NCBI GenBank assembly: GCA_022793195.1
Contig: JAAWCJ010000010.1
Location: 1 to 64,000 of the forward strand
Direction of reading: 5' to 3'
From: Lachnospiraceae bacterium
GTDB lineage: Bacteria; Bacillota; Clostridia; Lachnospirales; Lachnospiraceae
Length of the DNA: 64,000 bases
Part shown: positions 8,317-57,723 of the stretch, one piece after another
How the letters are laid out: the number at the start of each line of letters is the position of its first letter
Numbering within the stretch: position 1 is the first letter of the stretch
Program-made: the position numbers and the translations under genes
The notes under the pieces: model-generated
Told to the model about the DNA's origin: nothing
The model's input: only the letters and a program-made list of their open reading frames with translations
Databases searched by the model: none

Positions 8317-8505
8317 AAAACCCCCGGGCCCCCGCCTGCCTTTGCGCCTGGCCGGTAGGCAGATTTTGCAGGTTTTGTGAGCATAGCGCCGTCTGTCTCG
8401 CTGACCGTCTTCTATGGAAGCGACGGCAGACGGCAAAAGGCGGCGCAGCAAAACCCAAAAATCAACGTGGCCAGGCGCAAAGGCAGGCGGGGGCCCGGGG
8501 GTTTT
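8317..8505. repeat. Large palindromic repeat, copy 1
   Basis: A perfect 37-bp inverted repeat (8317-8353 with 8469-8505) encloses a 115-nt core with its own stems (GCCGTCTG near 8389 with CAGACGGC near 8427). The core shares TAGGCAGATTTTGCAGG and an ATCAACGTGG segment with the copies at 10394 and 57398. It fills the gap between convergent amt and anti-sigma genes, and the T-rich flanks could let it act as a terminator in both directions. Confidence 0.85.
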
Positions 8506-10393: not shown

Positions 10394-10851
10394 GGAACGG
10401 CTGCAAAATATATAGGGTTATATACGCCCGGAGCCCCTGCCTGCTGCACCTGTCCAATAGGCAGATTTTGCAGGTTTTGTGAGCATCGTTATGAGCACTT
10501 AGCGCCCATGTTTTGGGCGCTTACGTGCGATACATGCAAAGCACTTAGCAAGGTATTTTCGCGCTTTAGTGCTTTGCATAGCGCCGGCTATCTCGCTGAC
10601 CGTCTTTTGTCGTATGGAAAAATTTTCCATACGGCAAAAGTCCTCCGGGGGAAGCGCAGTTCGCGGAAAGGAAATTAGCCTTTCAGGCACCGCTCACGCG
10701 CGACGATTGCGCAAGCGCAATCTTTATGGAAGCGATGGCAGACGGCAAAAGGCGGCGCAGCAAAACCAAAAAATCAACGTGGACAGGCGCAGCAGGCAGG
10801 GGCTCCGGGCGGGAATAAACGCTAAAACCGTATATATTTTGTAGCGTTCCC
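10394..10851. repeat. Large palindromic repeat, copy 2 with inserted modules
   Basis: The outer arms (about 10394-10455 with 10790-10851) pair almost completely and start GGAACG. The core matches copies 1 and 3 but carries two extra palindromic modules. Module A (about 10487-10573) has arms ATGCAAAGCAC and GTGCTTTGCAT. Module B (about 10606-10722) begins with GTCGTATGG..CCATACGGC. Together with the ECF promoter this fills the 588-bp gap between the sigma gene and nrdG; no gene was recognised in it. Confidence 0.82.
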
Positions 10852-39637: not shown

Positions 39638-40717
39638 CTATTCTTCAAGAGGCGTTGTGGGGTTCTCCCAAATCCATCCGCCGTCGCCGTCGGACTCAAA
39701 ATGATTCGTCACACCGTATCCTCCCCGGTTTCCTCCGTCATAACGGTTGGTAAAAGTCACTGTCGCCTCTCCTGCCCCGGGCACTCCATTTGATATGGCC
39801 GCGTCGGACCAGATAAGGGCCGTACTTTCATCAGGCCCCACAATCGTATAGCTGGCCCCGGAATAAACCTCCGTCACCGTCACATTCAGTCCCGCGGGAA
39901 TCCCTTCCAGGGTAACCGTATTACTTCCGGCCGCCGTATAAGTCATGCTGGCCACTTCATCATATTTTGTAACTCCCAGTTTATCCACACCCACAATATG
40001 GAATACGAAAGTGGTCTGGCCCAGGGTTTCATTATAATTTTGCAGCCCCTTTACGATATGCAGCTTTCCAAACTGCGGCTCTGCCTCCGGTTTTAAGCCG
40101 ATTTTCATATCATAAACCCATTCGTCACTTCCCTCTCCCGTCAAAGTATACTCACTGGCGGGAAGCGCCGTCAGATATGGAATAAACGTGTACAGAACCG
40201 TATAATCCGGGTTATAGGAAGCCTCAGGAACCACCAGGTATAACCCCGGCGTCAAGCCACCGATCACACCCTGGGCAGCCTCCGTACTTCCCTCCTGTTT
40301 TTTCACATCTACAGTCCCGGCTGCTTCCAGGGGGTCTTCCGCCCCTACCCTGATTTTCTCCGCTTCCTGCGCCAGCTTACGCCAGCGGTCTGCGGTATCC
40401 CCGTTATGCTCCGGGCTAAGGTCGCTAAAATCCATATTTTTAAAAGGTTCTGTCGGGTTGTACCGCTGGCCGGTTACGTCCACATCTGCCACCCGGTATA
40501 CCGACACCGGGATCGTCATCTCATTAGAATCTTCCAGATATTCTTTATTCCCTTCATCCGTTTGGCCTATTTCCACAGATACCGTAAGGCTACAGTCGTC
40601 TTTGCCTATATCAATCCCACCGGCTGCCTGGGTCCGTATAAAATTCAGGCAGGGAAATACAAAGACTGCCGCCAGGGCCAGTATACACCATCCTCTTACT
40701 TTTTTACTTATTTTCAA
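39638..40717 (-). CDS. Pilin-like secreted protein with Cna-B-type domains, no anchor
   Basis: A 359-residue protein. A signal peptide ends near RTQAAG. The body has two or more Ig-like strands blocks: a first with VIGGLTPGLYLVVPEASY, and a second (about 220-330) with FGKLHIVKGLQNYNETLGQTTF and LEGIPAGLNVTVTEVYSG, resembling Cna-B/DUF5979 domains. The last residues are WENPTTPLEE, with no membrane helix or LPxTG, so it may be released or added at the tip. The start is TTG at 40717, with GAGGAGGG upstream. Confidence 0.7.
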   Translation of the reverse strand: MKISKKVRGWCILALAAVFVFPCLNFIRTQAAGGIDIGKDDCSLTVSVEIGQTDEGNKEYLEDSNEMTIPVSVYRVADVDVTGQRYNPTEPFKNMDFSDLSPEHNGDTADRWRKLAQEAEKIRVGAEDPLEAAGTVDVKKQEGSTEAAQGVIGGLTPGLYLVVPEASYNPDYTVLYTFIPYLTALPASEYTLTGEGSDEWVYDMKIGLKPEAEPQFGKLHIVKGLQNYNETLGQTTFVFHIVGVDKLGVTKYDEVASMTYTAAGSNTVTLEGIPAGLNVTVTEVYSGASYTIVGPDESTALIWSDAAISNGVPGAGEATVTFTNRYDGGNRGGYGVTNHFESDGDGGWIWENPTTPLEE

Positions 40718-41607
40718 TTCTTTCCCTCCTCGCTCTCTCCCTCTGTTTGCTTCCCTTTCTTTCTTCTCATAACGCGGCGCAAAATCAAAATCGCCAAAAC
40801 CGTCACTCCAAGGCCAAGCAACAAATACAGCATATAGTAGTTTTGAATCGCCTGCACCATGGATTCCACAGGCGTGGATTCCAGCTCCCCGTCATAGGGA
40901 ATCCTGTGGCCCCGCACCAGCAGGCGGTGGCTGTTGACGCCATAAGGGGTACAGGTAAACAGTGTCACATAATCCTGTCCCGAATCCACCTGAAGGGCTT
41001 CTTCCAGCGTATCAAAATCATCTTTATCCACCATCGGCAGAACCTGATCCACCTCATATGCCAAATCTTCGTTCAAAATATGCAGATAAAACCTGTCTCC
41101 CCGTCCCAACTGGTCGATATCCGTAAAAAGCTTCGCACTGGGAAGTCCCCTGTGGGCAGACAGGACACTATGGTTACTTTCTCCGCCGATGGGAAGCTTC
41201 GTACCGTTCATATGCCCGACTCCGGTGTCCAGCACCTCCTCAGCTGTCCCATGATAAATGGAGAGTTTTACGTTTATCTTGGGGATGGTAAGGTATCCCA
41301 TGATACCGTCCCCGGTGACATTGAGCACATTCCAATACTCTGTCCCTTTTATGTCCTCTGCCCCGTCAATCCCAAATACATCTGCCAGTATTTTGTTTTG
41401 CGTAAAAGACCGGTTATAAGCTTCGGCAGCTTCCCAGGCTTCTTCAAAATCTTCCTCTTTCATCTGGCTCACTGCCGCATCGTAACCGGAAATGAGCTTT
41501 GACTGCCTGTAAGTGTTCCACTGGTCGGAAATCGTAGGGTACGCAAGAATTCCCAGGCCGGCGAGAAACAAAAGGACGATCAGGACTGTGGATATCTTCC
41601 TTTTCAT
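40714..41607 (-). CDS. Class C sortase
   Basis: A 297-residue pilus-building transpeptidase. An N-terminal membrane helix (STVLIVLLFLAGLGILAY) precedes the catalytic domain, with the His in LSAHRGLP, the Cys in TLFTCTPYGVNSHR and the Arg of RLLVRGHR. A second C-terminal membrane helix, usual for class C, lies near 262-282. It joins pilin subunits. It overlaps the other sortase gene by 4 bp. Confidence 0.93.
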   Translation of the reverse strand: MKRKISTVLIVLLFLAGLGILAYPTISDQWNTYRQSKLISGYDAAVSQMKEEDFEEAWEAAEAYNRSFTQNKILADVFGIDGAEDIKGTEYWNVLNVTGDGIMGYLTIPKINVKLSIYHGTAEEVLDTGVGHMNGTKLPIGGESNHSVLSAHRGLPSAKLFTDIDQLGRGDRFYLHILNEDLAYEVDQVLPMVDKDDFDTLEEALQVDSGQDYVTLFTCTPYGVNSHRLLVRGHRIPYDGELESTPVESMVQAIQNYYMLYLLLGLGVTVLAILILRRVMRRKKGKQTEGESEEGKN

Positions 41608-42590
41608 GGTTTCATTTCCTCCTGGCTTTCCTCTTCCGGTTTCTCTTTCAATTCCTCTTCCGGCTCCATATCCTCCGGCAGCGTTTCTTCAGCCGCCTCC
41701 CCAGTTTCCGGCCGGTCATCTCCTGAAATTTCCCCGGCCTTCTTCAATGACAGCTTCTTTTCTCTCCTGTACAGGAAAAAGCTGAATACCCCGGTAATCA
41801 CAATCCCCACAACCACCCATAAAAGATAATTGGTATGCAGGCTCATATTGCTGAGAGGCACCTTTTCGTCCGCAACTTCCTCCGGCACATAAGGCACCCT
41901 GTGGCCCCGTACCATCAGACGGTGGCTGTTGACCCCATAAGGGGTACAAGTCATAAGGGTCGCCAGGTCTTCCTTGTATCCCACCTCCAGAACCTTCGTG
42001 TCTTCCGGCTCCACCACGGAAATCAAATCAACCTCATAACAAAGCGTCTCATTCAAAATATGAAGAAGAAAATGGTCGCCTTCTTCCATTTTATCTAAAT
42101 CCGTAAACAATGCCGCGCTGGGCAGCCCTCTGTGGGCAGAAATCACAGTATGGGTACTCTCCCCGCCCACCGGAAGGGAACTTCCCTCCAGATGGCCCGC
42201 CGCCATTTCCAACAGTTCTTCCCTGGTAGTATGGAAAATTGGAAGCGTAATCCCTATTTTGGGAATCTCCACTGTCCCCATCACGCCGTTTCCGGCAATA
42301 TTCAGGCAGGACATATACGCTTCGTCTTCCTCCGCAGCCTCAGCATCCGCAAAAGAATCCGGCAGGATACTTGGCAAAAGGGCATTATTATAATCCACCG
42401 CCAACTTCCACTCCGCTTCATAGTCAATGATTCCCGCCGCCTCTTTATCGGCCACTGCCTCATCAAACTCATTCAGAAGCTGTTTCTGTCTGTAATTATT
42501 CCACTGATTTGCCACAAATGGATACAGCAGCAGGGACAATCCGGCTAAAAATAAAAGGACTATTAAAATTTTACCTGCTTTTCTTTTCAT
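41604..42590 (-). CDS. Class C sortase
   Basis: A 328-residue sortase with the same plan: N-terminal helix, ISAHRGLP (His), ATLMTCTPYGVNSHR (Cys) and RLMVRGHRV (Arg), then a C-terminal helix and a Glu/Pro-rich tail of about 40 residues. Two sortases in one cluster suggest one for shaft polymerisation and one for accessory subunits. GGAGA 6 bp before 42590 sets the start over an ATG at 42638. Confidence 0.93.
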   Translation of the reverse strand: MKRKAGKILIVLLFLAGLSLLLYPFVANQWNNYRQKQLLNEFDEAVADKEAAGIIDYEAEWKLAVDYNNALLPSILPDSFADAEAAEEDEAYMSCLNIAGNGVMGTVEIPKIGITLPIFHTTREELLEMAAGHLEGSSLPVGGESTHTVISAHRGLPSAALFTDLDKMEEGDHFLLHILNETLCYEVDLISVVEPEDTKVLEVGYKEDLATLMTCTPYGVNSHRLMVRGHRVPYVPEEVADEKVPLSNMSLHTNYLLWVVVGIVITGVFSFFLYRREKKLSLKKAGEISGDDRPETGEAAEETLPEDMEPEEELKEKPEEESQEEMKP

Positions 42591-42685
42591 CCGGACTCTC
42601 CTTGCTGTTGTATGTTCTTTCAATATTGCGGAGATCATCCGCGGCCCTGTTTCGTATCCCGAAGGGCCGCGGATGGCCTTAAAAT

Positions 42686-44314
42686 TTATTTACTTACTTT
42701 TGCAGATTTTCTGCGGCTTGCGAAGAATAATCCTGCCGCAACCACCATGATCAGGCAGCCTGCAACAGTAAAGATTGTTGTACCGATACCACCGGTGGAA
42801 GGAAGGGCGGAAAGTCTGGTATTCTGAATCTTAATTGCTTCTTCAACCGCTTCATTTCCATAGTCGTCCAGCGCCCCGGTTGCAACATCAATCACTGTTC
42901 CTGTTTCGCCATATGTCACTGTATAATCCTTGGTTTTGTTTGTCACATTATCTGTAACATGTACCTTATAAGTAATGTCTTCCCCTGCATAGTTTTCCGG
43001 TTTGTCAAATTCAAAGGTAATCCTGTAAACCGTGTCATTGATGGAATACTTATCGGGAGCCGCCGTCTCCTTCAGGTAATATACCTTATCCGTATCGCCA
43101 TCCAGGCCCTTAAATTTAATCTCACCATCTTCTTCCGTCGTATATTCACCGACTTTGTTTGCCTTTACATTTGCCGTCTCATCGTTGGGATCCCATACGA
43201 TTGTTTCCGTTCCTGCCGCGTCGGCAAGGTACAGGCTGAAAACTGCATCCTGAAGGGCTTCATCCTTTTCATCTACTTTGTCAAAAATCCCATGGATGGC
43301 AAAAGAGAATACATACTCTTTATCTGTCTTGTCATCTGTCTCCCCAGGTTCTGTTGAGAACTCCAGTTTTGCCTCATTTTCTCCTACTTTGACAACTGCC
43401 GCATCCGTAACCTCAGCCGCATAGGTGATCTCAACGGCGCGCGCTGTGGTATCCTTACCTGCAAGTCCATGAATATAATCCGCTGTAAAGGCAACTGTAA
43501 AAGATGCGTTCTCATCATATGTCAGTTCGTATTCTACATCCTTAGTAAGGGTGGTTCCCCCCACTTTCACCACAGGCTCACCTGTATATTTCAGACCATT
43601 GACAATGGTATCGCTGATTGTAAACACAGGATTCTCATAATAAGTCTTATCATAGGAAGGCATCGTGCTTGTGATGGTGAAGGGTACTTCATCCCCTACT
43701 TTCACCTTTGTATCTGTTGCGGGGTTATCCAGATCCTTGGTAAGTTTGATTTCGCTTGATTTTGCAAAAGCATCCGTTGTCTCCAGGGTCCAGTTCTTAT
43801 TTGCATCCACACTGCCTGCCGTAAGCTCGTTGGAGGTTCCGCTTCCCTCCACCGTATAGTAAACACTGACTACCATCGGATTGTAAACTTTTGTCGGGTT
43901 GTTTTCCGGCGGCGTCACAAGGATCATCCAGGTTCCGGCTGTCAGTTTCGTCTCATTGGGGGTAAAAGCTACGCTTTCCAGGCCTGCAGGATTCTTCGCC
44001 AGCTCTGTGATCATGGCGCTTGTGAGTCCCTGGACTACAGCCTCGTCCCCCGCGCCGGTAAATGTCACTTTCTGGCCTGCGTTCGCCATTCCCTTTGCCC
44101 AGACATAGCCGGTAAAACCGCCGTCATTGGGCGCATAGGTGGCGTCAATAATCTGGTAGGCCGTATAAGTAGCGCCCGCTTCCACATTTGTGATATCCAC
44201 TGTTTTTGAATCTGTGTCCTTCGGTAATGCCGGGGCCGCGGACGCCACAATAGACATCCCCAGTACCATCGCCATTGCAAGCAGCAAGGCAAACCATTTC
44301 TTCATGCTTTTCAT
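42686..44314 (-). CDS. LPSTGG-anchored major pilin-type protein
   Basis: A 542-residue surface protein. The signal peptide ends near IVASAAPALP. A fimbrial isopeptide-forming D2 domain (about 195-320, TKDLDNPATDTKVKVGDEVPF) and a Cna-B/SpaA domain with YYLKETAAPDKY, whose Glu supports an isopeptide bond, are visible. The C-terminus is LPSTGG, a 20-residue helix and RRKSAK, a canonical sorting signal. It probably forms the pilus shaft. GGAG lies 6 bp upstream of the ATG. Confidence 0.88.
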   Translation of the reverse strand: MKSMKKWFALLLAMAMVLGMSIVASAAPALPKDTDSKTVDITNVEAGATYTAYQIIDATYAPNDGGFTGYVWAKGMANAGQKVTFTGAGDEAVVQGLTSAMITELAKNPAGLESVAFTPNETKLTAGTWMILVTPPENNPTKVYNPMVVSVYYTVEGSGTSNELTAGSVDANKNWTLETTDAFAKSSEIKLTKDLDNPATDTKVKVGDEVPFTITSTMPSYDKTYYENPVFTISDTIVNGLKYTGEPVVKVGGTTLTKDVEYELTYDENASFTVAFTADYIHGLAGKDTTARAVEITYAAEVTDAAVVKVGENEAKLEFSTEPGETDDKTDKEYVFSFAIHGIFDKVDEKDEALQDAVFSLYLADAAGTETIVWDPNDETANVKANKVGEYTTEEDGEIKFKGLDGDTDKVYYLKETAAPDKYSINDTVYRITFEFDKPENYAGEDITYKVHVTDNVTNKTKDYTVTYGETGTVIDVATGALDDYGNEAVEEAIKIQNTRLSALPSTGGIGTTIFTVAGCLIMVVAAGLFFASRRKSAKVSK

Positions 44315-44436: not shown

Positions 44437-46530
44437 TTAACTTCCCGACACCTCCCTGCACTTACTTTTATATAAGATCAGCGCGGCTGCAAACATCAGC
44501 AGTACACCGCCAATCGAATACCAGTAGATTCCGCGTCCGCCTGCCTCTGGCAGCGCGTACAGCTTTTCATTCCTGATCTTCAGGATAATCTCTTTACCGT
44601 CCTCGGCGCCGACGCCCGCCATACTGCCCCCCGGCCCTTTAAGGGCTACGGTTCCGTCCGTCTTCAGCGTAAAGCCCACAGGCTCCCGCAAAAGCGAATG
44701 TCCTTCCGGGGATTTAATTTCTGTGATGGTGTAGTCGCCGGGAATCAAGTTACAAATCGTCAGGCTTCCGTTTCCGTCCACACTTAAATCTGTCTTTGCG
44801 TCAGGATTGCTGCTGCCTCCTGCAGGAACCAGCATCCATTTCTGGGCCGGGCTTTCATTTGCATCCCACAGATGGATGGTCCCATTCTCACTGACGCTTC
44901 CTCCGCTTAAATCCATACGCCATGTACTAGTATTTCCAGCCCTACTAGGGCAAATATAGGAACCTCCACCGCCGGAAGTCACATACCATAGCTGGTTTTC
45001 ATTGGGAGTCGTGTTACTCCAGACATGGATTTTGGCTCCCTGAGCCAGACGTCCTTCATCCAGATCCAGCCATTTCCCAGAACCTATATTGAAGAAACTG
45101 TAAAGGCCATCTCCACGGTCTGTGATTTCAAATAACTGCATATCACTGCCAGTTCTTCTTTGAAGGACAGGCAAGGCGCCGTCCCAGGTTCCGTTGACTC
45201 CCACCACATAATCGGAATTGCCTGCAAACGCAATGTAATATTTTCCCTCCAGAGCCGGCTCCTCTTCCTCAAGTAATGTATAGCCCTTCCCCTCTTCATA
45301 AGTAAATGAAAGTGTCCTGCCACCGCCATCCCGGATGGTAAAGGCCGCGCCTGACAAAGGATTCTCTCCATTGGCGCCCGTTTTCTGAATCTTCATCACC
45401 GTATCAGGGTAAAATCCACAGTCATGGTATTTGGATTCATACAGGGAAACAGACATTTTCTCAGCTTCCGGCATTTCCAGGTTCAAAATCAACGTTTTCT
45501 GCAGTTTCTCGTCACCGTCATATACGGCAGCCCCATCCGAATCCAGGGTGTCGTCTGTGCCGCTGTCCCTTTTTGTCACATTCAGCTCTGTGATTTTTGT
45601 CTCAGTTCCGTCTGTAAAACGTACGGCAAAAGTTCCTGCCGGAAGGTCTATAAAACGGTAACGCCCCTGCTCATAAGAAGTAACTTTGCTGCTGTCCTTT
45701 GCCCGGACACTGACCTGTTTTCCCGTTTCAATTATGATCTTGTTCTCTTCCTTCGTCGTATCTGTGCCGGGATAGTAAACATTCTCATAAGAGCTTTCTT
45801 CCTCCGGGTCTTTTCCTTCTATCAGTTTTAGCAGCTCTACTTTGACACCGGAAATCCTGGTTTCTGTCTGCGGATCACCCTGTATCCCATCCCGGTCATA
45901 ATCCATCCATGTGAGTCCCTCCAAAGTACGCCTCAACGTGGGCGTCTCCGTAGTGGTAGTGGTATCACCGTTGGAAAGCCGATTGACAAAATAGTTGGTT
46001 CCTGTCCTGTTCCCTTCCGACTCTCCCGGATTCAGTTTAATTTGTAAATCCACATATACGCTCTTACCAGGTTCCAAAGCTCCCAGCACGGCCCAGGCCA
46101 CCGGATACGGCTGCTCTTTACTGGCCCCGTCTGCCTCTGTCGGTATCGCAATGGTCCCATCCGGGCTGACCGGCGCTTCCTTCCAGGTTTCTATTTCTGT
46201 TACCGGTACATCCTTCGCTGTCTTATTTTGATACCCTGTATCAAAGGTATAATAAATTTTAATCCTGTTTACATCACATTTTGTGGCATCCAGCTTCCAT
46301 TTGGCAAAACTATAAGTACCGGTGAAATCACTTCCGCTCACCCCATTCATGGGCATCGTATCCATCAGCGCCACCGAAACCCCGGTTTTTGCATTATTAT
46401 TGAAATAAACAACGTAATCAATGGCTCCGTCTTCGTCCACTACTTTCTGCTTCGTATATTTGGCGAAAGAGCTGGCGCTGCCGCGGGTAACGGTAATCCC
46501 GGCCTTTGCATGTTTCTCCTCCGTACTCAT
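44437..46530 (-). CDS. Adhesin 3' part: lectin-like and LPEAGG-anchored
   Basis: A 697-residue frame without its own signal peptide. It contains SdrD-like strands (TLRRTLEGLTWMDYDRDGIQ), a prealbumin-like domain with LSGAAFTIRDGG, two ricin B-type repeats (NENQLWYV and SPAQKWMLV are Q-x-W motifs), a Cna-B domain (GDYTITEIKSPEGH) and LPEAGG, helix, KSKCREVS at the end. On its own it would stay in the cytoplasm; the ATG at 46530 lacks a good ribosome site. It belongs to the split adhesin. Confidence 0.75.
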   Translation of the reverse strand: MSTEEKHAKAGITVTRGSASSFAKYTKQKVVDEDGAIDYVVYFNNNAKTGVSVALMDTMPMNGVSGSDFTGTYSFAKWKLDATKCDVNRIKIYYTFDTGYQNKTAKDVPVTEIETWKEAPVSPDGTIAIPTEADGASKEQPYPVAWAVLGALEPGKSVYVDLQIKLNPGESEGNRTGTNYFVNRLSNGDTTTTTETPTLRRTLEGLTWMDYDRDGIQGDPQTETRISGVKVELLKLIEGKDPEEESSYENVYYPGTDTTKEENKIIIETGKQVSVRAKDSSKVTSYEQGRYRFIDLPAGTFAVRFTDGTETKITELNVTKRDSGTDDTLDSDGAAVYDGDEKLQKTLILNLEMPEAEKMSVSLYESKYHDCGFYPDTVMKIQKTGANGENPLSGAAFTIRDGGGRTLSFTYEEGKGYTLLEEEEPALEGKYYIAFAGNSDYVVGVNGTWDGALPVLQRRTGSDMQLFEITDRGDGLYSFFNIGSGKWLDLDEGRLAQGAKIHVWSNTTPNENQLWYVTSGGGGSYICPSRAGNTSTWRMDLSGGSVSENGTIHLWDANESPAQKWMLVPAGGSSNPDAKTDLSVDGNGSLTICNLIPGDYTITEIKSPEGHSLLREPVGFTLKTDGTVALKGPGGSMAGVGAEDGKEIILKIRNEKLYALPEAGGRGIYWYSIGGVLLMFAAALILYKSKCREVSGS

Positions 46531-49500
46531 GGGGTCGCGCAGATCCCGGGGAGTTGTAATATAAACCGTATTCTCCAGCGCCGTCGTACCGGTGGGAATA
46601 TCTTTCTCCGGATTTCCTTTGACACCGATCTCCGCGGAATAATAAATGGGGCCATCTCTTTGCCGATTTCCACATCCTCGATAATCCAGGTCAGAGTCTG
46701 TGTCCCGTCCGCATTGTCTGTGACTGTCGGTTCTGTCAACACCGGTTCCGGGAACAGGGCTCCGGCGGATTCATCTTTAACGATATTCCCCTTTGTCCCG
46801 CCGTTTGCCGACGTCTGTACGTAAACGCCTCCAAAATATGCGGTTCCCGGCTTGTAAGTCATATGCTTCGGGAGAGTGTCCACAATGGTAATCCTGGCAG
46901 TATCCCGGAATTCACCTGGTTGATCATAATAGGTCCTCGGCTGCAATTTGAAATCCGCCACTCTCTGATCGGTATCCAGATTAAAGAGCTGTTTCTCTTC
47001 CCCATTGTTTTCTGTCTGCTGCAGATTTTTCGTGATCTTCGTCTTATATCCGATGATCAGCAGAGTATCGCCCCAGTGGTACCAGTCGGAGTTGTGGCTG
47101 CCTTTTATCCCGCTTCCGTCTTCCCAGTATGTCTCCTTATCATAGAAAACACTGCCTTCTATATTGGCGCTCTTATAATGGTCAAGCTCCCATAAACCTT
47201 CTTTCAAAACCAGGTCAGGGACATTTAAATCCGGATGCTGTTCAAGATCAACGCTGCTCAGCATACCGGCTTCCTCCAGCATCCTTTTTGTCCACACACG
47301 GGATGTGGAGGCCAACATAAATGTTTTTCCGGCCAAGTCCATGTCGTCCCTGACTTTTGCCTTGTGATAACACATATAATACGGGTCACTGGCATCCACT
47401 TCGCTCCCCGGGCCGATAAAGCTGATCAGCATACCGACGCAGAGCTTTCCTTCCGGGATTTTATCCAGGCTGTCATAAAAGACAAGTTCATCCTCATAAG
47501 TACCTTTCAGCTGCTCATCACTGGCCCAGTCGCTCCCATCTTTTTTTGTCGCATAATAGATCCGGATATGCTCTTTGGCCTGCGCTATCTCATTACTATC
47601 ATGTCCCCCCAGGGATGCTCCTCCGTCAAGAGTCAAAATCCAGTCCTCTTCCGTTAGCTCCAGGGCATTCCCATAAAACTTAACTAAAGTCGTCCCCAGG
47701 TAAAGCTGGTTCTCCTCAACCCTGTTTGGATTATAAGAAAGTCCTCCCATCAAATTCAGTTCCGAATCCACCGCCGCATAATCCCGGCCATCCCGGTTAT
47801 CCTTGATTCCACATCCTCTTCCGATGTCATTCGCATCCGCATAACGGACTCTGTTCTGCATATGCCCTTCCAGTGTAAGCTCCAGGGTTCTGGTTTCCCG
47901 GTCATCCTCACTGACCATTTGCTGAAAACCATTTTCTCCCTGCACCAGCTTCTCTCCGCTTACCGTTGTGACTTTCATATTGTAGGCCTGCGCTATTGTG
48001 GTAAAAGCCCCCTGGCCGTAAGTCTCCACTATATCGTAATTCGGTTTTTTGCCTGTGCCTTCTTTTTTATTAAACGGTTGTATCAGCCAGATTTCACCGG
48101 ATGAAAAGCAGCCCACATTGGCATAATATTTCACTTCTGACGTATCGGCATTCATAGTAGGCATTTTTTGCGGATCAATCTCATAACCGCTGACGGTTAT
48201 ATGAATCTTATCCCCCTCCTGGGTAGCCGTCCAACTGCCACCGTTATAACAGCCATTGGAATCGTTTGACCAGGTATTATAAGGGGCAAAGGGAGTTCCT
48301 TTCAGGCTGTCGTCAATCTGACGGCCATCTTTATTCCGCTCTCCATATTCCCTCCAGGTCAGTTCGTTATAGCTCCACAAAAGAGGTGCATAATCTGCAT
48401 CTTTTATGATTTGGCCGCTTTGATACCCGGATCCATCCTTCGGCGTATTGATTTTATATTCCGACGATATCGTCAGGTCAAAACTAATCTCCCCTTCCGG
48501 CAGTTCAATTCCTTTCAGGCCCTTGGAAGCATTGTCGTTGTATAGCTGAAGCGTAATGCCAAGCTTCATGGCCCGCCCCGGTATGATATCCGTATTGGCC
48601 GCCACATTTCCATACTGTTCCATCCAGGCGGCATCTCCCTGGAAATTGAAATCGTCTGCGTAGGAAGAATCTCCTTTTACCTGAATGTTATATTTGGGCG
48701 CCGCCGTTACTTCCACTTCGTTTGCCCTAACAGTCTTTTTCTCCTCCGCGGGCTGGCCATTGATTGTATGGTTTTCGCAAGGACCATCCCAGGTGCCTCC
48801 CTCCATGGCCGCGCTTATAATAGGGGCAAATCTCTGTCCATTTCTCATGGAGCGGACATAAACCGCCACATTTTCTCCAAACTCTCCCGGCACCACCGAA
48901 TGGTTTCCCTCCGAAGGGAGCAGAAGTTTATGGCAGGTCAATACCTGACATTCCTTCTCCTGGCCGTCAATCGTACGGATTTCCGTAGTAAGGACCGGCT
49001 TATACCCTTCTGTCTGATCCATCCATGCCATAGCCGTCTGGTCAAACACCGCCTCATCTTTAGTTAGGGGCAGTACGAACTCCATTTTTACCCTGGCCTG
49101 GGCGTAGGTTTTGGTGGCGTCCCAGGACTCCATATCAACCAGAAAATTATAATTAACCGTATCAAAGGTACGAACCAGATCATCCTCTGCCGTCGTATCG
49201 TTTCCCCGTCCTGCCGAAGTGTCAAAAGGGGAGGAGCCTGTGGCAACACCACTAATCGTAATTTCTTTTACGCGGGCCTCATCCGGTCCCATCACATTCC
49301 CGGCCGAATCCTCCAGCGTACTGGTCTGCATCCACTCAAACTGAGAAAGTTTTTCCGAATTGGCTACCTGTGCCTTCTGGGCCTCATTGAGCTTCTCATA
49401 AGCACTCCGCACTTCGCAAACCTGGCTGTAAAGTTCCTGGTAATACAAATTGTAGCCGTCTTCGTCTTCTGCTTCCATCAAAGCGAGAAACCGCTCTTCT

Positions 49501-50678
49501 ACTTCTTCCCGTTCAGGCAATGTTTCAATCAGAGCCGTTACCGCTTCCACCTGCTGCTTCTCTTCCTCTGTCAGGACACTTTGAGTTCCGGAAACTGCAT
49601 TTCCCTCCAGCATCCTGTTTCCGGCATTTGCTGTTTCCTCCCCGGCATTTTTATATGCTGCTTCCAATTCCGTTATTTTCAAATATCCGGTAATGTGGCT
49701 GTCGCCGGCAGGATATTGGTTCTCCCTCACTTCATCGCTGCTGTTGCCTTCAATCACCCGAATTGTATTCTCCCCTGCATTATAGGAAGAAACAATTCCC
49801 ATCTGGTGTGCCGTCTCTTCGTTTTCCCTTGCAAAGAAAACAATGTCGCCCGCTTTGGGTTCATAGCCGCCTGCTGCTATCACAAAGTTCCGGTTTGTTT
49901 CGTTTGCTCCTACGAATTTATCATACCATCCGGCTGCTTCCAGCTCTTTTGGAAAGATGTTTAACTCAGACATCCCGGCATAATACATACAAAAATTCAC
50001 AAAAGCTGCATCCCAGTCTGCATACATATTTCCGGCAAAATGACCGTACCGGCTATAACCTTTATGGCTTCCATCCTCTGCAACCGTATAATTGTTAAGG
50101 CTTTCCCTGTATCCCACCTGTTGCTTGGCCGCCGTCACCAAATCTTCTCCCCAGACGCCTTTCCATGTGGTGCCGGCATACATCCCATTCCAAGTCTCCT
50201 GGCTCTCCACATCCTCGGTTTCATTGGTGTAACACAAGTCCGTATGGATATGTTCTTCCTTTCCGCAGACGATTTCACTTGTATAACATTCATCCGTATG
50301 GCTATGCCCTTCTCTTTCTTCCAATCCGCAGGCCCAGCCTTCCGGTGTGCTATAACACTCCTCCGTATGGGTATGTTCTTCGCCTTCCTCCAGTCCGCAC
50401 CTCAGTTCCTTCGGAAAATAACAAGACTCCGTATGAAGATGCCCTTCCACTTCCTCTAAGCCGCAGGATAGTGTTTTTGTATAGCATCCCTCACCGTGCT
50501 GATGTTCTTCCACTCCACATTGGGGCGTACCAGTCATGGCCATACCGTATTGTGACAGAATCCCTGCCACGCTTCCGACTACCATCACAACCAGAAGAAC
50601 CGCAGCAATCGCGGCTTTCCTGCTTTTCCTCTGCCGCTTCTTCAACTCATCTAAATATTCTCTCAAAAGTTTCTGCAT
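46527..50678 (-). CDS. Adhesin 5' part: His/Cys repeats and degenerate CHAP domain
   Basis: About 1,383 residues from ATG 50678 (GGAAGGTGAAG upstream). Residues 22-48 are a membrane or signal segment. Residues 54-150 hold five C-G-x-E-E..H-x-H-x3-C-Y repeats. Residues 175-340 look like a CHAP amidase, but the catalytic Cys is D223 (ADWDAAFVNFC); the His (AHQMGIV, H291) stays. A long Ig-like body follows to the frameshift at about residue 1343. The tail after it is out of frame and lacks an anchor. Confidence 0.75.
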   Translation of the reverse strand: MQKLLREYLDELKKRQRKSRKAAIAAVLLVVMVVGSVAGILSQYGMAMTGTPQCGVEEHQHGEGCYTKTLSCGLEEVEGHLHTESCYFPKELRCGLEEGEEHTHTEECYSTPEGWACGLEEREGHSHTDECYTSEIVCGKEEHIHTDLCYTNETEDVESQETWNGMYAGTTWKGVWGEDLVTAAKQQVGYRESLNNYTVAEDGSHKGYSRYGHFAGNMYADWDAAFVNFCMYYAGMSELNIFPKELEAAGWYDKFVGANETNRNFVIAAGGYEPKAGDIVFFARENEETAHQMGIVSSYNAGENTIRVIEGNSSDEVRENQYPAGDSHITGYLKITELEAAYKNAGEETANAGNRMLEGNAVSGTQSVLTEEEKQQVEAVTALIETLPEREEVEERFLALMEAEDEDGYNLYYQELYSQVCEVRSAYEKLNEAQKAQVANSEKLSQFEWMQTSTLEDSAGNVMGPDEARVKEITISGVATGSSPFDTSAGRGNDTTAEDDLVRTFDTVNYNFLVDMESWDATKTYAQARVKMEFVLPLTKDEAVFDQTAMAWMDQTEGYKPVLTTEIRTIDGQEKECQVLTCHKLLLPSEGNHSVVPGEFGENVAVYVRSMRNGQRFAPIISAAMEGGTWDGPCENHTINGQPAEEKKTVRANEVEVTAAPKYNIQVKGDSSYADDFNFQGDAAWMEQYGNVAANTDIIPGRAMKLGITLQLYNDNASKGLKGIELPEGEISFDLTISSEYKINTPKDGSGYQSGQIIKDADYAPLLWSYNELTWREYGERNKDGRQIDDSLKGTPFAPYNTWSNDSNGCYNGGSWTATQEGDKIHITVSGYEIDPQKMPTMNADTSEVKYYANVGCFSSGEIWLIQPFNKKEGTGKKPNYDIVETYGQGAFTTIAQAYNMKVTTVSGEKLVQGENGFQQMVSEDDRETRTLELTLEGHMQNRVRYADANDIGRGCGIKDNRDGRDYAAVDSELNLMGGLSYNPNRVEENQLYLGTTLVKFYGNALELTEEDWILTLDGGASLGGHDSNEIAQAKEHIRIYYATKKDGSDWASDEQLKGTYEDELVFYDSLDKIPEGKLCVGMLISFIGPGSEVDASDPYYMCYHKAKVRDDMDLAGKTFMLASTSRVWTKRMLEEAGMLSSVDLEQHPDLNVPDLVLKEGLWELDHYKSANIEGSVFYDKETYWEDGSGIKGSHNSDWYHWGDTLLIIGYKTKITKNLQQTENNGEEKQLFNLDTDQRVADFKLQPRTYYDQPGEFRDTARITIVDTLPKHMTYKPGTAYFGGVYVQTSANGGTKGNIVKDESAGALFPEPVLTEPTVTDNADGTQTLTWIIEDVEIGKEMAPFIIPRRSVSKEIRRKIFPPVRRRWRIRFILQLPGICATP

Positions 50679-50691
50679 ATTCTTCACCTTC

Positions 50692-51297
50692 CTAGTGCAT
50701 AATTCCCATGCGCGCCAATGGCCACGCCCGAAACACCACTTTGCCGACAATCTGCTCTTTTTCCACAGATCCGATTGATTTAATCCGGCTGTCTATTGAT
50801 ATGGCTCTGTTGTCCCCCAGCACAAATGTCATCCCTTCCGGAACGATGTAGGGAAATTCCACTTCACATTTTCCCAGACTTTTTTCTTCCAGATAAGGCT
50901 CATCAATCATTTCACCGTTGACATATACGTTGCCATCTCTGTCCATCTCCACACAGTCCCCTGAGCTTGCTATGGCGCGTTTTAAGAGTACCCGTCCGCC
51001 ATAATAAAATCCCACTATATCCCCCGTCTCAATCTCTTTTGTCTGGCGGAGAAATACGATCTCGCCGCTCTCAAGGGCCGGTTCCATACTGTTTCCATTG
51101 ATTTTGATTAGTACGAAAATCCTGGTGGCCACCAACGCGGTTATCGCAGCTGCCACAATCAGCACCACCGCCACATTCCAGAGGGTTTTCCGAAAACTAT
51201 GTTTTGCCTCCTCCCTGGCCAATTCCGCCCGGAGAAGTTCTATGGAAGGAATCTCCAGTGTTTCTTTCCGTTCTTCCTTCCGCTCTTCTTTATCCAT
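50692..51297 (-). CDS. lepB: Signal peptidase I
   Basis: About 201 residues. The membrane helix (about 39-61) is followed by NGNSMEPALESGE with the nucleophile Ser, VLLKRAIASSGD with the base Lys, and LGDNRAISIDSR. This is the prokaryotic Ser/Lys type, unlike the SipW-type enzyme at the other end of the operon. The Lys/Glu-rich N-terminus of about 25 residues is cytoplasmic. I chose the ATG at 51297 (MDKEERKEE) with AGGTGA upstream. It lies 13 bp before the adhesin gene. Confidence 0.92.
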   Translation of the reverse strand: MDKEERKEERKETLEIPSIELLRAELAREEAKHSFRKTLWNVAVVLIVAAAITALVATRIFVLIKINGNSMEPALESGEIVFLRQTKEIETGDIVGFYYGGRVLLKRAIASSGDCVEMDRDGNVYVNGEMIDEPYLEEKSLGKCEVEFPYIVPEGMTFVLGDNRAISIDSRIKSIGSVEKEQIVGKVVFRAWPLARMGIMH

Positions 51298-51336
51298 AAA
51301 TATCACCTGAGGCCATGACAAGTGAAGCGTATTCTG

Positions 51337-51866: not shown

Positions 51867-52343
51867 TTACATTTCTTTATCTGACCCGCCATCATTCGCC
51901 TGCCCTGCTTCATCCAGGGTACTGTCTATGATCTTAATCAGTTCCAAAGCCGACCGGAAACATACGGTTTGGTCTTTATCCAGGTATGTGACCCTGCCCT
52001 GCCAGCTGCTGTGCTGTCTGTGCTGTACACGGATAACAAACGTCCCCATATCACCATGTTGTTCTAATAATTCTTCATCGCCCATGACTTTTGCCATCCC
52101 TTCTTTTTTCCGGTATCTGTGTATACGCCCGCCTATATCTCTGTCACCGGTTCCCATATGGGGAAAGCCCAGTGAATTAAAAAGCTCCTCCGCAGTCCTT
52201 ATGATATCTTCATATCCGCAAAAAAGAATTCCTTCTTTACTGTATCCGTGATACAGCCGGCCTTTTATCATCCCATTATCATTCTGATCGACACACAGCA
52301 TAATCCCGTTCGGTGTCCCAATATAACGCCCGGATGCTCCCAT
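51867..52343 (-). CDS. Small unknown protein B, paralogue of protein A
   Basis: A 158-residue soluble protein. Its C-terminal half (FVIRVQHRQHSSWQGRVTYL followed by FRSALELIKIIDSTLDE) aligns with protein A (53851-54336: VTVHRREYGSIQGTVNV, FRSALELMHMLHEYLE). The N-terminal half repeats the plan (GMIKGRLYHGY, IIRTAEELFNSLGF). So each protein looks like two copies of a strand-strand-helix unit. First gene of the structural pilus operon. Function unknown. Confidence 0.7.
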   Translation of the reverse strand: MGASGRYIGTPNGIMLCVDQNDNGMIKGRLYHGYSKEGILFCGYEDIIRTAEELFNSLGFPHMGTGDRDIGGRIHRYRKKEGMAKVMGDEELLEQHGDMGTFVIRVQHRQHSSWQGRVTYLDKDQTVCFRSALELIKIIDSTLDEAGQANDGGSDKEM

Positions 52344-52452: not shown

Positions 52453-52470
52453 TTAACAACATTTTAACAA
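52453..52470 (-). promoter_or_regulatory. Heptamer direct repeats, candidate BTAD/SARP operator
   Basis: On the minus strand TTGTTAA occurs twice with an 11-bp period (52470-52464 and 52459-52453). SARP-type activators bind 7-bp direct repeats with an 11-bp period next to the -35. The site lies about 110 bp before the protein B gene and between it and the BTAD regulator. A GATAG pair (near 52492 and 52480) further upstream has similar spacing. Confidence 0.45.
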
Positions 52471-52543
52471 TCCACCACTATCTCAATAGCTATCCATTTC
52501 GCTTTTTACTGCGCTTTTTTAATTTTTTGGCTATATAAATCAT

Positions 52544-52574: not shown

Positions 52575-52604
52575 AAAAAAACAGCAGGCTCATACCCGCT
52601 GTTT
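52574..52604 (-). terminator. Terminator of the BTAD regulator gene
   Basis: On the minus strand AACAGCGGG pairs with CCTGCTG across a TATGAG loop, followed by TTTTTTT. It separates the regulator unit from the structural pilus operon, so the latter must have its own promoter in 52344-52573. Confidence 0.75.
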
Positions 52605-52618
52605 TAAAGGTGTTTCTC

Positions 52619-53812
52619 TTATGTCTCACAAATCACACTGTTCACATGATATTGTATACCTATGCGCTGTCTTCCGACAATGAATCTCTGATTAATGCGA
52701 TTCTTTATAATCTCGCAATCTTCTCTTGTAATATTAATCAACAGAATCAAAAACTGGCCGCTTCCATACTGATTGACAATATCTCCATGTCTCACAGACA
52801 TTTTGACTGCTTCCAGAAGCCTGGCAGACATTTCCTCCCGTCGTTCCTTTTCTTTAACCGGATTCCCTTTACTGTCCACCATGGTGCATAACATCAGGTA
52901 AATGCTCTGCCCTCCCCGCTCCATCAGGCGGCTGACCGCATGGTATATACCGCGAAATACCGGATATGAACATTGATAGCCGCCATTTGGGGAACCGGAA
53001 TCTTCTGCCAGTCTCCTCTGGATCTGATCCAGCACTGCATAAGAGTGGCGCATCTGGCTTCCCAACCGTTCCATTGTCTCCAAAAGCTTCGCAGAAGGAT
53101 AGACGCCCTGTTCTCTGAGATAATATTCCACCGTATCGGCATACAGCTTTTCAGCCTCCCCATATCTCCCTTTCTCCATAAGGGCTTCCATAATCAGGCT
53201 TTCCCAGTTGGAGAAGGGGGTAATCTCTGTCACATATCTTCCAAGCTTCTCCAGGCGGAGCCAATCTTCTTTCTTCCTTATAATAGTAGCTGCATTTTCC
53301 ACACATTCGCAAAACTGCCTGCGGTAACGTCTCGCCTCCGCCCCCGCCCACCGGACTGCCGTATATGTAGAAAGAAACTCTCCTTTGTATTTGTAACATG
53401 CATCCAGATAAATTCCCAGTCGTTTTTCCTCGTCCGCACATCCTTCCGCCTGACTGCATAAGCTGTCAAAAACCGCTGCATCTTCGCTCACCGGTATCTG
53501 CGGCGTCCAATAATAAATACCCTTTTTCAGAAATATATAATTCTCATCAGGCAGCCCCATATTCTTAAGCTTCTTTTTCGCCTTATACACAATCGTCTGC
53601 AGCGCCTGATGTCTGTTTTCCACATCCCTGTCCCCAAGCAACACATCTTCCAGATAGTCCCGGCTCACTCCCGTGGAAACATTGTGGAGCAGAATCTGCA
53701 TAAGACTCGTGAAATGAGTATCTCTAAGCTTTTCTCCGGTCAAAGGACGTCCATTGTAATACAGCTGAAAATTTCCAAACATCTGGACGTACAGAACATG
53801 TGGCTTCTCCAT
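52619..53812 (-). CDS. BTAD-type transcriptional activator with degenerate GGDEF-like domain
   Basis: A 397-residue regulator. Residues 1-95 are a winged-helix DNA-binding domain of the SARP/OmpR type (VQMFGNFQLYYNGRPL). Residues 100-255 are a helical bacterial transcriptional activator domain (TAVRWAGAEARRYRRQF). Residues 275-397 resemble a GGDEF domain, but the motif is QYGSGQF instead of RYGGDEF, so it cannot make c-di-GMP by the usual mechanism. It follows protein A by 38 bp. It probably activates the pilus operon. Confidence 0.85.
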   Translation of the reverse strand: MEKPHVLYVQMFGNFQLYYNGRPLTGEKLRDTHFTSLMQILLHNVSTGVSRDYLEDVLLGDRDVENRHQALQTIVYKAKKKLKNMGLPDENYIFLKKGIYYWTPQIPVSEDAAVFDSLCSQAEGCADEEKRLGIYLDACYKYKGEFLSTYTAVRWAGAEARRYRRQFCECVENAATIIRKKEDWLRLEKLGRYVTEITPFSNWESLIMEALMEKGRYGEAEKLYADTVEYYLREQGVYPSAKLLETMERLGSQMRHSYAVLDQIQRRLAEDSGSPNGGYQCSYPVFRGIYHAVSRLMERGGQSIYLMLCTMVDSKGNPVKEKERREEMSARLLEAVKMSVRHGDIVNQYGSGQFLILLINITREDCEIIKNRINQRFIVGRQRIGIQYHVNSVICET

Positions 53813-53850: not shown

Positions 53851-54336
53851 TTAAGAACGGTGCCGAAAATTGTTTTCCAGGTATTCATGAAGCATGTGCA
53901 TGAGTTCCAGCGCACTGCGAAACTGTGTCTTCTCTCCTTTCACATTTACAGTCCCCTGTATACTTCCGTACTCCCGCCGGTGTACGGTAACTGTCATCTG
54001 TCCACGGAAACCGGCGCCTGTTTCCCTCCGTCCATCCCCATCCTCCGGACTCCGGCTCGCCTGTTTCCAGGAAATCCATCTCCATCCGCGGTTTTCTGCT
54101 TTAGAATATCCGGTTTTCCCTTTTTCCATCTTCAGATGTCTGAACTCTCCTATCTTCCGCGGGAACTCCGCCTCATCCAAAGCATCTTCCATAAGCATGA
54201 ACAACTGATCCAGGCTGTCAAAGTAAAATGGCATCTGATAGCGAAGCGTCTGCATCGTCCCCTTCGCAACCCTGCCCTCATAAGAATCAAAACGCAGCAG
54301 CAACGGCTCTGAACAAAAAGCGGTATGGTCTGTCAT
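53851..54336 (-). CDS. Small unknown protein A, first gene behind the invertible promoter
   Basis: A 161-residue soluble protein with two strand-strand-helix halves, separated by an Arg/Ser/Gly linker (about 85-105). It is a paralogue of protein B. GGAGGAG lies 7 bp before the ATG. The 55 bp between the start and the left inverted repeat (54392) contain no promoter that I can see, so its expression must come from the invertible segment or from integrase readthrough. It precedes the BTAD gene. Confidence 0.7.
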   Translation of the reverse strand: MTDHTAFCSEPLLLRFDSYEGRVAKGTMQTLRYQMPFYFDSLDQLFMLMEDALDEAEFPRKIGEFRHLKMEKGKTGYSKAENRGWRWISWKQASRSPEDGDGRRETGAGFRGQMTVTVHRREYGSIQGTVNVKGEKTQFRSALELMHMLHEYLENNFRHRS

Positions 54337-54391: not shown

Positions 54392-54419
54392 TGTCATAAA
54401 GTTCCATACTTTCGGACAA
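54392..54419 (-). repeat. Left 28-bp inverted repeat of the invertible segment
   Basis: Exact reverse complement of 55899-55926. It contains a symmetrical core, AAAGT-ATGGA-ACTTT when read on the minus strand, which fits two recombinase half-sites around a 5-bp crossover region. Confidence 0.85.
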
Positions 54420-54436
54420 GTTGGCTGAATAGCCAG

Positions 54437-55630
54437 TTAAAGGCCATTTGTGTGGATTACCTGACCAGAATCCTGACCACAAACGGAAATTTTTTCCAAA
54501 CGGTTCATATGTTGGCGCTTTAAGTTGATGGAAGGATGAACATATCTTTGGAGTGTCGTGGACACACTGGAATGACCCAGGATCTCTGACAAGGATTTCA
54601 GGTCAAAGTCATTTTCGACACAACGTGTGGCGAATGTATGCCGCAATGCATGATAGTTGAAATTTTCCAGTCCGCATTTTTTCATTACCTTTTTATATTT
54701 TCTGTAATATTCCCTTGGCTCCAGGTAATTGCAACTTCCAGTTAATACGTAGAAATCCAAATTTGTCTGATGGTTTTGGAAGGCAGGCAGCATGAAAGAA
54801 GGAATGGGAATTTTTCTGGAAGAAGAGTTGGTTTTTGGCGTATCAATAATGATTTTTGTTTTTGCCTGAATTCCAGGAGCATTTTCAGAATGAAAGACAG
54901 GAATTCGCTGAATGGATCTCCGTACACATAAAATACCGTTTTCCATATCCAAATCTTCCCAACGCAAGGCGCAAATTTCTCCAATCCGCAGACCAAGATA
55001 CAAGCTTACCATAATGCCAAAACTAACTTTGGTATCTTCTTTCAACAGAATAACTTCCAGTTTTTTTTGTTCTTCCCAGGTGAGGATTTGAATTTTGGGG
55101 GTATTTTGTCGGGGATTACGGATAACGATATGTGTTGGACAACAATATCCGCGTTCTGCCCCATAGTCCAGTGCAAGGCGGATGACAGATAAAAACCCTG
55201 TTACGGTTTTTGGGGACCATCCCCCTGATTTTTTCAAATTTCCCTGAGCCAGTTTTTTCAGTGAAAAGTGATCAATATCCTCACTGGTCATTTCAGACAA
55301 AGAAATCTGCCCCAGTTCCGGCCGAATATGTTTTTCGATCATAGCCGTATAGCGGCTATAGGTGGATTCTTTCACATCCGGCCGGACGAAATACAGCCAG
55401 TCCGTAAGCAGTGAGCCGAATGAACGGCGTGTTTGAGGGTAAGTAATACTGCGGGAACCATGAAATAATTTCTGCGACATCATTTGATTTTTTGCTTCTT
55501 TTGCTTCCGCATAAGTTTTTCTGTAGATATACTTATACTTCGCCCTTCCATTCTCTTTATATCCACAGATCAGCCTCGCTTCCCATCGCCCGTCTTTCCT
55601 CTTTCGGATATTTTCACCGTGTCTTGCCAT
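54437..55630 (-). CDS. Tyrosine recombinase (Tn916-integrase type)
   Basis: A 397-residue site-specific recombinase. The N-terminal arm-binding domain (about 1-60, [20 protein letters not shown]), core-binding domain (about 70-170) and catalytic domain (about 185-380) are complete. The catalytic residues are the Arg in [12 protein letters not shown], His/Arg in [11 protein letters not shown], the His in LGHSS and the Tyr in [15 protein letters not shown] lies before the ATG. The gene lies within the 28-bp inverted repeats, so its strand changes on inversion. Confidence 0.92.
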
Positions 55631-55836
55631 AAATGTTTCCCCTTTCGTTTTTTTATTTAAGATATCAAATGGTTTCTGATTAATATATCATATACGTAAA
55701 AAACGAAAAGAAAAACATTTATAACTGACCACGAAAACGACTGAAAATCCTGCAAAAATGGGATAAAAACAGAAAAATTCAAGGTTCTGGCCTGGAAAAT
55801 ACTGGAATATACTGGAAATGTGCGCCTTGGGAAGTA

Positions 55837-55865
55837 TTGACTTTTTAAGATTGGTAGCATAGAAT
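55837..55865 (+). promoter_or_regulatory. Outward-facing sigma-A promoter of the invertible segment
   Basis: TTGACT at 55837-55842, a 17-bp spacer and TAGAAT at 55860-55865. It lies 34 bp inside the right inverted repeat and transcribes rightwards out of the segment. As drawn, its transcript meets the terminator at 56044-56090 after about 210 nt; 55927-56043 holds a hairpin (55976-55985 with 56011-56020) but no convincing gene. Confidence 0.65.
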
Positions 55866-55898
55866 TGTATTAAATTAAGTGATTTTGTTGATTTTTGG

Positions 55899-55926
55899 TT
55901 GTCCGAAAGTATGGAACTTTATGACA
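55899..55926 (+). repeat. Right 28-bp inverted repeat of the invertible segment
   Basis: Exact reverse complement of 54392-54419. The match ends abruptly on both sides: outside, the left flank continues GTT and the right AAA in equivalent orientation. Confidence 0.85.
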
Positions 55927-56043: not shown

Positions 56044-56090
56044 AAATGTGGCAGATAATAACAAGTCTCTTTTACTGCCACATTTTTTTT
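56044..56090 (+). terminator. Terminator facing the invertible promoter
   Basis: AAATGTGGCAG (56044-56054) pairs with CTGCCACATTT (56075-56085), followed by TTTTT. On the plus strand it is a good intrinsic terminator. It overlaps the last codons and stop of the convergent methyltransferase-NUDIX gene. Confidence 0.65.
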
Positions 56091-57397: not shown

Positions 57398-57723
57398 GGC
57401 TGGTGCAAAATATCTGAATTTATATGTGCCCGGCCGCCCGCCTGTCTTTTGCATTTGCCCGATAGGCAGGTTTTGTGAGCTCGTTATGAGCACTTAGAGC
57501 CCGTAGTTTGGGCGCTTACGTGCGATACATGCAAAGTACTTAGCAAGGTATTTTCGCGCTTTAGTACTTTGCGTAGCTCCGACAGCCTCGCTGACCAGCT
57601 TTTATGGAAGCGATGGCTGTCGGTAAAAGGCGGCGCAGCAAAACCAAAAAATCAACGTGGACAAATGCAAAGACAGGCGGGCGGCCGGGTAAGTATAAAC
57701 ATCCGTATGTTTTGCAACACCCT
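57398..57723. repeat. Large palindromic repeat, copy 3
   Basis: Arms about 57402-57460 and 57655-57720 pair (CGGCCGCCCGCCTGTC with GACAGGCGGGCGGCCG). It contains module A (about 57478-57575) with arms GCAAAGTACTT and AGTACTTTGC, where copy 2 has GCAC/GTGC: paired bases change together. It lies between the methyltransferase start region and the metY stop; no gene was recognised in 57245-57726. Confidence 0.82.

Follow-up and report, generated by a model that had tools for sequence, protein, structure and literature searches.

A probable self-contained invertible promoter cassette, carrying an integrase-like recombinase, ahead of a pilus locus in a member of the Clostridia

In the Hin switch, which sets flagellar phase in Salmonella, a promoter fires out of one end, and Hin itself is a serine recombinase that works together with an enhancer and Fis. 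The fim recombinases are encoded outside the 314-bp segment and are not known to have an arm-binding domain. The accessible text of PMC5903667 names Hin and, together with that of PMC7241687, treats the RecV switches of Clostridioides difficile, which are clostridial invertible regulatory segments served by a tyrosine recombinase. Promoter-bearing invertible segments, called invertons, have been located in gut bacteria with PhaseFinder, often near surface genes or recombinases (PMC11892184, in part), and tyrosine recombinases of mobile elements have gained an arm-binding domain that is needed for mobility, a group within which the accessible part of PMC8138268 sets out an IntTn916 subgroup. 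Here we describe a segment in a stretch of 64,000 nucleotides from a Lachnospiraceae bacterium (the window, by which we mean that whole stretch), and we consider it very likely, judging from the sequence, that the segment is a self-contained phase-variation cassette in which inversion of a promoter would control protein A, a BTAD activator and pilus genes.

The segment is bounded by perfect 28-bp inverted repeats, as the first-pass annotation of this DNA had claimed. The left repeat (54392-54419) can be read as a core site with the outer half TGTCATAAAGT, the spacer TCCAT and the inner half ACTTTCGGACA, and the right repeat (55899-55926) is its perfect reverse complement, with 28/28 positions complementary and 1479 bp between the arms. 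No further match to the repeat sequence, at up to 3 mismatches, is present in the 64-kb window (0.00 expected). The sole large ORF between the arms is the one tyrosine recombinase gene that had been claimed to lie there (54437-55630, minus strand, 397 aa, with a Phage_integrase match). Perfect inverted repeats of at least 20 bp within 3 kb occur at three other sites in the window (8317, 10425 and 57429). These three (8317-8505, 10425-10811 and 57419-57699) are copies of one intergenic palindromic element, with perfect inverted ends of 21-37 bp and a core common to all of them, and a 37-bp hairpin is present twice in the window, at 52543 and 57360. A second cassette, with 20-bp perfect inverted repeats and a recombinase split in two frames, is found elsewhere in the same genome (L183, G000:C38:79965-81470).

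The recombinase matches Phage_integrase and SAM_3 (Phage_int_SAM_3) in Pfam and has the core-binding and catalytic domains of tyrosine recombinases; its AP2 match stays below the Pfam cut-off, at 21.8 of 33.3 bits. The residues R215, H327, R330, H353 and Y363, which we take to be catalytic, are invariant across 14 recombinase sequences, and an N-terminal GxNIxKRKDGRxE block is conserved in the same set. The best PDB relatives are the "Int protein" chains 6emy, 6emz and 6en0 (profile match to 6en0 with E 1.9e-28), presumably the Int of Tn1549, and the cassette enzyme is very probably of the mobile-element integrase type. A Hin/Gin serine invertase was considered and rejected, the window enzyme being a tyrosine recombinase and not a serine recombinase, which bears out the earlier remark that the enzyme family is unlike that of Hin.

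The putative promoter is TTGACT-17-TAGAAT, directed outwards, and the string is indeed found where the first-pass annotation put it, at 55837-55865 on the plus strand. A promoter scan of this region of the window gave 7 candidate sites, and shuffled sequence gave 9.6 ± 3.0. A promoter string in a single genome proves nothing, and conservation across loci is used instead: the pattern TTGAC(T/A)-17-TA(G/A)AAT keeps its position, 33-41 bp inside the repeat, in all six pilus loci (the window included), and the noncoding DNA that holds it is 61-74% identical among locus pairs, except for the pair of the window and L034 with 87%. What the inverted repeats flank is accordingly a segment that bears a candidate promoter.

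Beyond the left repeat, the first gene encodes protein A (53851-54336, minus strand, 161 aa). Its start at 54336 lies 55 bp past the repeat and has a GGAGGAG ribosome site, and the window promoter scan lists no promoter-like site for it, in agreement with its first description as a promoterless gene with a good ribosome site. The BTAD transcriptional activator (52619-53812, minus strand, 397 aa) is directly next in order, also as described. Protein A matches no family in Pfam or NCBIfam, five of the 397 genomes of the bacterial family have a match to it, with a close one in its own genome alone, and it resembles the 158-aa product of the first pilus-operon gene (51867-52343, minus strand) at 20% identity. 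A terminator 3' of BTAD (52578-52605, minus strand) suggests that the switch would govern an A-BTAD transcript; a strong hairpin terminator closes the A-BTAD unit in four of the five pilus loci examined, L035 being the one without.

The operon that follows belongs to a sortase-assembled pilus locus, with two class C sortases (41604-42638 and 40714-41607), a SpaH/EbpB-family LPXTG major pilin (42686-44314), a large CHAP-like/SpaA/ricin-B adhesin (44437-50750) and a signal peptidase I (50692-51321), all on the minus strand. The adhesin is divided over two overlapping ORFs in the window and is a single ORF of 2181 aa in L035 and of 2134 aa in L037, so the split is either a frameshift or an assembly error. 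Ahead of the operon stands a conserved element of the type GGATAG-N7-GATAGTGG(C/T)GGATTGTTA (52465-52495, minus strand). It could be aligned in five loci: the window, L035 and L036 share the reading GGATAG-N7-GATAGTGGYGGAYTGYTA, from which L034 and L037 depart by one or two changes. The core pattern is found at a single place in the window's own genome, and the element is likely the binding site of BTAD.

From these parts a simple course of events can be proposed. The recombinase, encoded inside the segment, would be present in either state and would use both 28-bp repeats as its core binding sites, and its N-terminal domain probably binds TGGTCA sites inside each end; strand exchange within the 5-bp spacer would then turn the segment over. 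In the OFF state, which is the one sequenced, the promoter would fire rightwards into the terminator at 56044-56090. In the inverted state the -10 would end at 54453 on the minus strand, and a leader of about 110 nt, if the start is assumed to be 7 nt after the -10, would run into protein A and BTAD, and the transcript would end at the 52578-52605 terminator. Through the element at 52465-52495, BTAD would in turn activate the separate sortase-pilus operon. The inner parts travel with the segment, which leaves the substrate almost unchanged by inversion, and the switch could therefore be reversible without a directionality factor. The terminator had been called dedicated. The plus strand at 56044-56090 does fold into a hairpin (-15.2 kcal/mol, z -5.0) that is followed by a U run and would catch the promoter in the OFF state, but the convergent methyltransferase-NUDIX gene ends within this hairpin, at 56072, and "dedicated" is for that reason an interpretation.

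The same cassette was sought upstream of BTAD and pilus genes in related genomes, as the first-pass annotation had proposed, and orthologous cassettes are present in four congeneric genomes (L034-L037) as well as in a metagenome-assembled genome titled uncultured Dorea (L032). Their recombinases are 64-87% identical to the window enzyme, and their repeats are 28, 25, 26, 18 and 22 bp long in L034, L035, L036, L037 and L032, with one mismatch in L036 and in L032; apart from L034, the repeat sequences have diverged from that of the window. The order of repeats, recombinase, promoter, A and BTAD is kept in 6/6 loci, and the pilus genes are retained in 5/6, the DNA fetched for L032 holding the cassette, A and BTAD, with none of the window's pilus proteins found in it. 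The neighbour on the side away from A is the methyltransferase-NUDIX gene at two loci, a LacI-like gene (by eye) at three and another gene in L032. The six pilus recombinases form one clade in the recombinase tree with a support of 100/99, and since all six cassettes precede A-BTAD, the pilus branch does not look like an ordinary mobile element scattered over unrelated places, an outcome that would have spoken against the switch. On this comparison the pilus switch is passed down as a unit. A Tn916-like mobile element, which would bring Xis and conjugation genes with it, was also tried as a candidate and rejected, on the grounds that there is no further large ORF, that the core sites are inverted and that the cassette keeps the same place before A-BTAD.

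The orientation is identical in all six pilus loci, with the promoter facing away from A (OFF), and an inverted pilus cassette was found neither in 11 genomes of its own genus, nor in 41 genomes of near and far kin, nor in three loci from a contig search (of which L031 is the same contig as L034). One could take the uniform orientation to mean that a cassette that once inverted is now a relic locked OFF in this lineage, and a decayed copy of the island in L138 points the same way. We give that only a slim chance, since the recombinase ORF is intact, the 28-bp repeats are perfect both in the window and in L034, and the spacers have changed between lineages yet are equal within each locus. The copy in L138 (G334:C83), which is from another genus, has a decayed recombinase, A, BTAD and a sortase (by eye) in unchanged order. 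Relatives of protein A also occur beside other repeats. In L140, from another genus, a distant one is situated behind an inverton-like segment with 24-bp perfect repeats and 233 bp between them, in which no strong promoter was found (the best is 9/12 in either direction), and a 280-aa ORF just outside it has an end that matches the catalytic end of the window enzyme. In a congener (L139, G041:C35), a contig of 119,042 bp is a palindrome, checked over its central 11 kb, a mid-arm stretch and both ends, centred on the same inverton-like segment upstream of a relative of A, and is perhaps an assembly fold-back from mixed orientations. Genes like A may thus have come under inversion control more than once, by different enzymes.

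The cassette also has a much wider family. With a limit of E 1e-60, a profile built from 14 recombinases finds matches in 102 of the 397 genomes that represent the bacterial family. Sixty loci were fetched and 58 used (L139 and L140, fetched as relatives of protein A, have no recombinase match and were dropped), and flanking inverted repeats with a score of 18 or more are present at 39 of the 58, against 3 of 290 mismatched pairings of left and right flanks, counts that come mostly from the top of the match list and include some near-copies, and so are not counts of independent events. Among the 19 loci whose repeats fall below the threshold, one is a decayed copy and one starts at a contig end. 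At the level of the class, which we take to be Clostridia from the named relatives, 34 of 391 genomes match at E up to 1e-100, and 15 of 26 loci reach a score of 18 (26 of 29 loci were used, three being from genomes of the family sample, and the control with mismatched pairs applies to the family level alone). For the comparisons below we use a set of 53 cassettes, made up of the 15 first loci and 38 of the 39 that score at least 18, L121 having been dropped since its left arm is too far away. Six of the 16 listed matches in phage and plasmid records were examined, and five of these have flanking repeats. There are cassettes in Vescimonas fastidiosa pMM35_02 and in three unannotated fecal scaffolds filed as phage, a related one in Ruminococcus albus 7 pRUMAL02 is flanked by 20-bp repeats and carries an outward promoter that scores 12/12, and in Enterococcus gilvus pCR1A (L179) no clear repeats were found.

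Both orientations have been observed for two pairs of sister cassettes, against 6/6 OFF in the pilus clade. One genome holds both L082 and L083, copies that are 92-95% identical and lie in opposite orientations; when their cassettes are aligned directly both flanks are inverted, and at either end the alignment extends across the repeat. The repeats carry a C/T difference in their outer half that goes with the flank, and the strand exchange is thereby placed at the spacer or directly beside it. L043 and L044 come from two genomes; here too the cassette is inverted between the flanks, with one alignment that crosses the repeat and another that ends about 40-55 bp outside it. Swaps of one flank are seen in L040/L041 (a sugar transferase), in L123/L136 (TadZ) and in many pairs with a TnpB-like target. 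The spacers tell a similar story. A spacer of 5-7 bp is equal in both repeat copies at 52 of 53 loci and equal between loci in 8 of 932 comparisons, a test that is not fully independent, as the repeat search favours matching centres. With the centring fixed on a 5-bp spacer, there is no mismatch between the copies (0/53) at each of the seven central positions, and mismatches become commoner outwards. In the six pilus loci the spacers differ at 2.9 of 5 positions on average between loci and at none within, and such equality within loci is expected if each pair has to match for strand exchange. Taken with the architecture and the promoter kept in 6/6 pilus loci, and with the sortase-pilus operon downstream, the two inversions and the identical spacers support the original reading of an invertible promoter. 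We think that the self-contained invertible promoter is real and probably working, and we infer that the window's own segment inverts as well.

A further feature points to the type of integrase. Inside both ends of the cassettes in the 53-member set there are pairs of TGGTCA, about 12 bp apart and on the same strand, which are putative arm sites. If the promoter end is called left and the end with the recombinase C-terminus right, and at least 10 of 12 letters are demanded, a pair is present at the left end in 34/53 cassettes, where 1.15 are expected, and at the right end in 40/53, which is coding DNA and is not covered by the shuffle expectation, this being for the left end alone; on the other strand there are 0/53 such pairs at either end. 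The window has the right-end pair 12 bp apart (54462-54479, minus strand), inside the last recombinase codons (GQDSGQ), and one clear copy at the promoter end (55726-55731, minus strand), a place where most relatives have the two paired. Throughout the family the right-end pair coincides with the last codons of the recombinase, GQxxGQ, and 46 of the 47 C-terminal Gly codons are GGT, a codon used for 152 of the 1039 Gly residues elsewhere in these genes (L041, with its broken gene, is omitted from the counts). The DNA itself therefore seems to be under selection there. Paired sites inside both ends suit an arm-site integrase of the IntTn916 type, and because the AP2/arm domain scored under the Pfam cut-off, arm binding by the recombinase at TGGTCA is something that we infer.

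The state in which the window was sequenced might be more than simply OFF. There are 17 bp between the recombinase stop and the left repeat, and the stretch up to protein A gave no hairpin with a U run, and read-through from the recombinase into protein A is therefore possible in the present orientation; the OFF state may be leaky, or the recombinase and protein A may form one operon. Extended to the whole locus, this would mean that transcription of the recombinase gene continues across the left repeat to A and BTAD, that the present state is a low-level ON, and that inversion either uncouples the genes or swaps the low expression for a strong one. Recombinase and target are codirectional in 6/6 pilus loci, and the same is true of 29 family cassettes among the 36 for which one side could be called automatically. 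In the automatic tally of the 53 cassettes 7 are ON and 29 OFF, 11 have genes that point away on both sides and 6 are without a call, three of which are OFF by gene order; the excess of OFF means that recombinase and target usually run in the same direction, and may reflect leaky operon expression or a population bias. Such an operon would however have no use for the outward promoter, which is present in 6/6 pilus loci and, with at least 11 of 12 consensus letters, in 27 of 53 family cassettes, some of them near-copies, where 0.35 are expected (inward in 1/53), and which in several target families faces the target in some genomes (L042, L044, L045, L082, L115 and L123). We therefore hold the operon to be a minor though serious possibility, and keep to the invertible promoter as the better account.

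The recombinase groups with integrases, and the cassettes precede many different genes, with at least six changes on the recombinase tree (from which L041, with its broken gene, and L138 are omitted) needed for the TnpB-like target alone. Both facts would suit a small mobile element, an integrase-only transposon with the repeats as its ends that happens to sit ahead of protein A. The core spacers are however identical in inverted orientation, inversions are seen between orthologous or duplicated loci, and the pilus group is a single clade with 6/6 members ahead of A-BTAD, all of which makes a chance insertion very improbable. Across the family the invertible promoter seems to have acquired new targets repeatedly.

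The targets themselves deserve a description. The labels TnpB-like and helicase-like were given from the resemblance of the N-terminal residues and from matches at the DNA level, with Pfam run for L043, L044 and L083 alone. By likeness, a TnpB-like protein of about 440-470 aa is the target in 13 of the 53 cassettes (L042, L043, L044, L045, L039, L084, L093, L096, L105, L115, L126, L130 and L133), in both orientations of the switch; a Cas12f1-like TNB domain scores above the Pfam cut-off in L044 and just below it in L043, there is a weak TnpB-family match, and the protein is possibly phase-variable. A helicase-like target is found in L082, L083, L086 and L111, with DEAD/ResIII and helicase-associated domains in L083 and by likeness in the rest. 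In L038 (1865-8575, G007:C56) the cassette is placed ahead of a ubiquitin-like operon that encodes a RING-like zinc ribbon, a YukD/ubiquitin-like protein, a ThiF E1-like protein, an E2-like protein with FHA and a JAB protease, and this system is possibly phase-variable as well.

If the switch works as proposed, it could explain mixed pilus expression within clonal populations, and the family supplies candidates for phase-variable genes among gut Clostridia that have received little study. The cassette is a compact flip module with one enzyme, and its mechanism can be tested in Ruminococcus albus 7, a named strain that has a related cassette.

Compared with the systems described earlier, the window differs from the Hin switch in the enzyme, Hin being a serine recombinase and the window enzyme a tyrosine recombinase with putative arm sites of the integrase type. 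It is closer to fimS with FimB and FimE in Escherichia coli, which from the accessible description also combines a tyrosine recombinase, inverted repeats, an invertible promoter and a pilus, but in the window the enzyme gene is part of the segment, which measures 1.5 kb, and the promoter would first reach protein A and the activator, not a pilin. One RecV inverts several segments in C. difficile, according to the available text, whereas each cassette here has an enzyme of its own. Invertase genes are placed near invertons in the accessible parts of PMC11892184, which describe no group of segments with an arm-site recombinase inside them, and a limited search of open papers gave no title or abstract that matched a segment carrying its own arm-site integrase. 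Among solved structures the enzyme is closest to the Int chains 6emy, 6emz and 6en0, a likeness to integrases such as the Int of Tn916 and Tn1549. The paired sites of the same direction near both ends resemble the DR-2 arm sites of Tn916. We lean, with some reserve, towards regarding these loci as a class of portable, self-inverting promoter cassettes in Clostridia, each with an arm-site (IntTn916-like) integrase, two core sites in inverted orientation and direct-repeat arm sites that all fall within the segment, with one pair of arm sites in the last codons of the enzyme; such a cassette would flip rather than jump, might do so without a directionality factor, and would have been coupled repeatedly to pili, polysaccharide genes, TnpB-like proteins, helicases, a ubiquitin-like operon and others. 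In contrast to the elements of the IntTn916 type, the core sites are set for inversion and the segment holds little beyond the enzyme gene and the promoter, and an integrase of the mobility type thus appears to have been tamed into a gene switch that carries with it what it needs.
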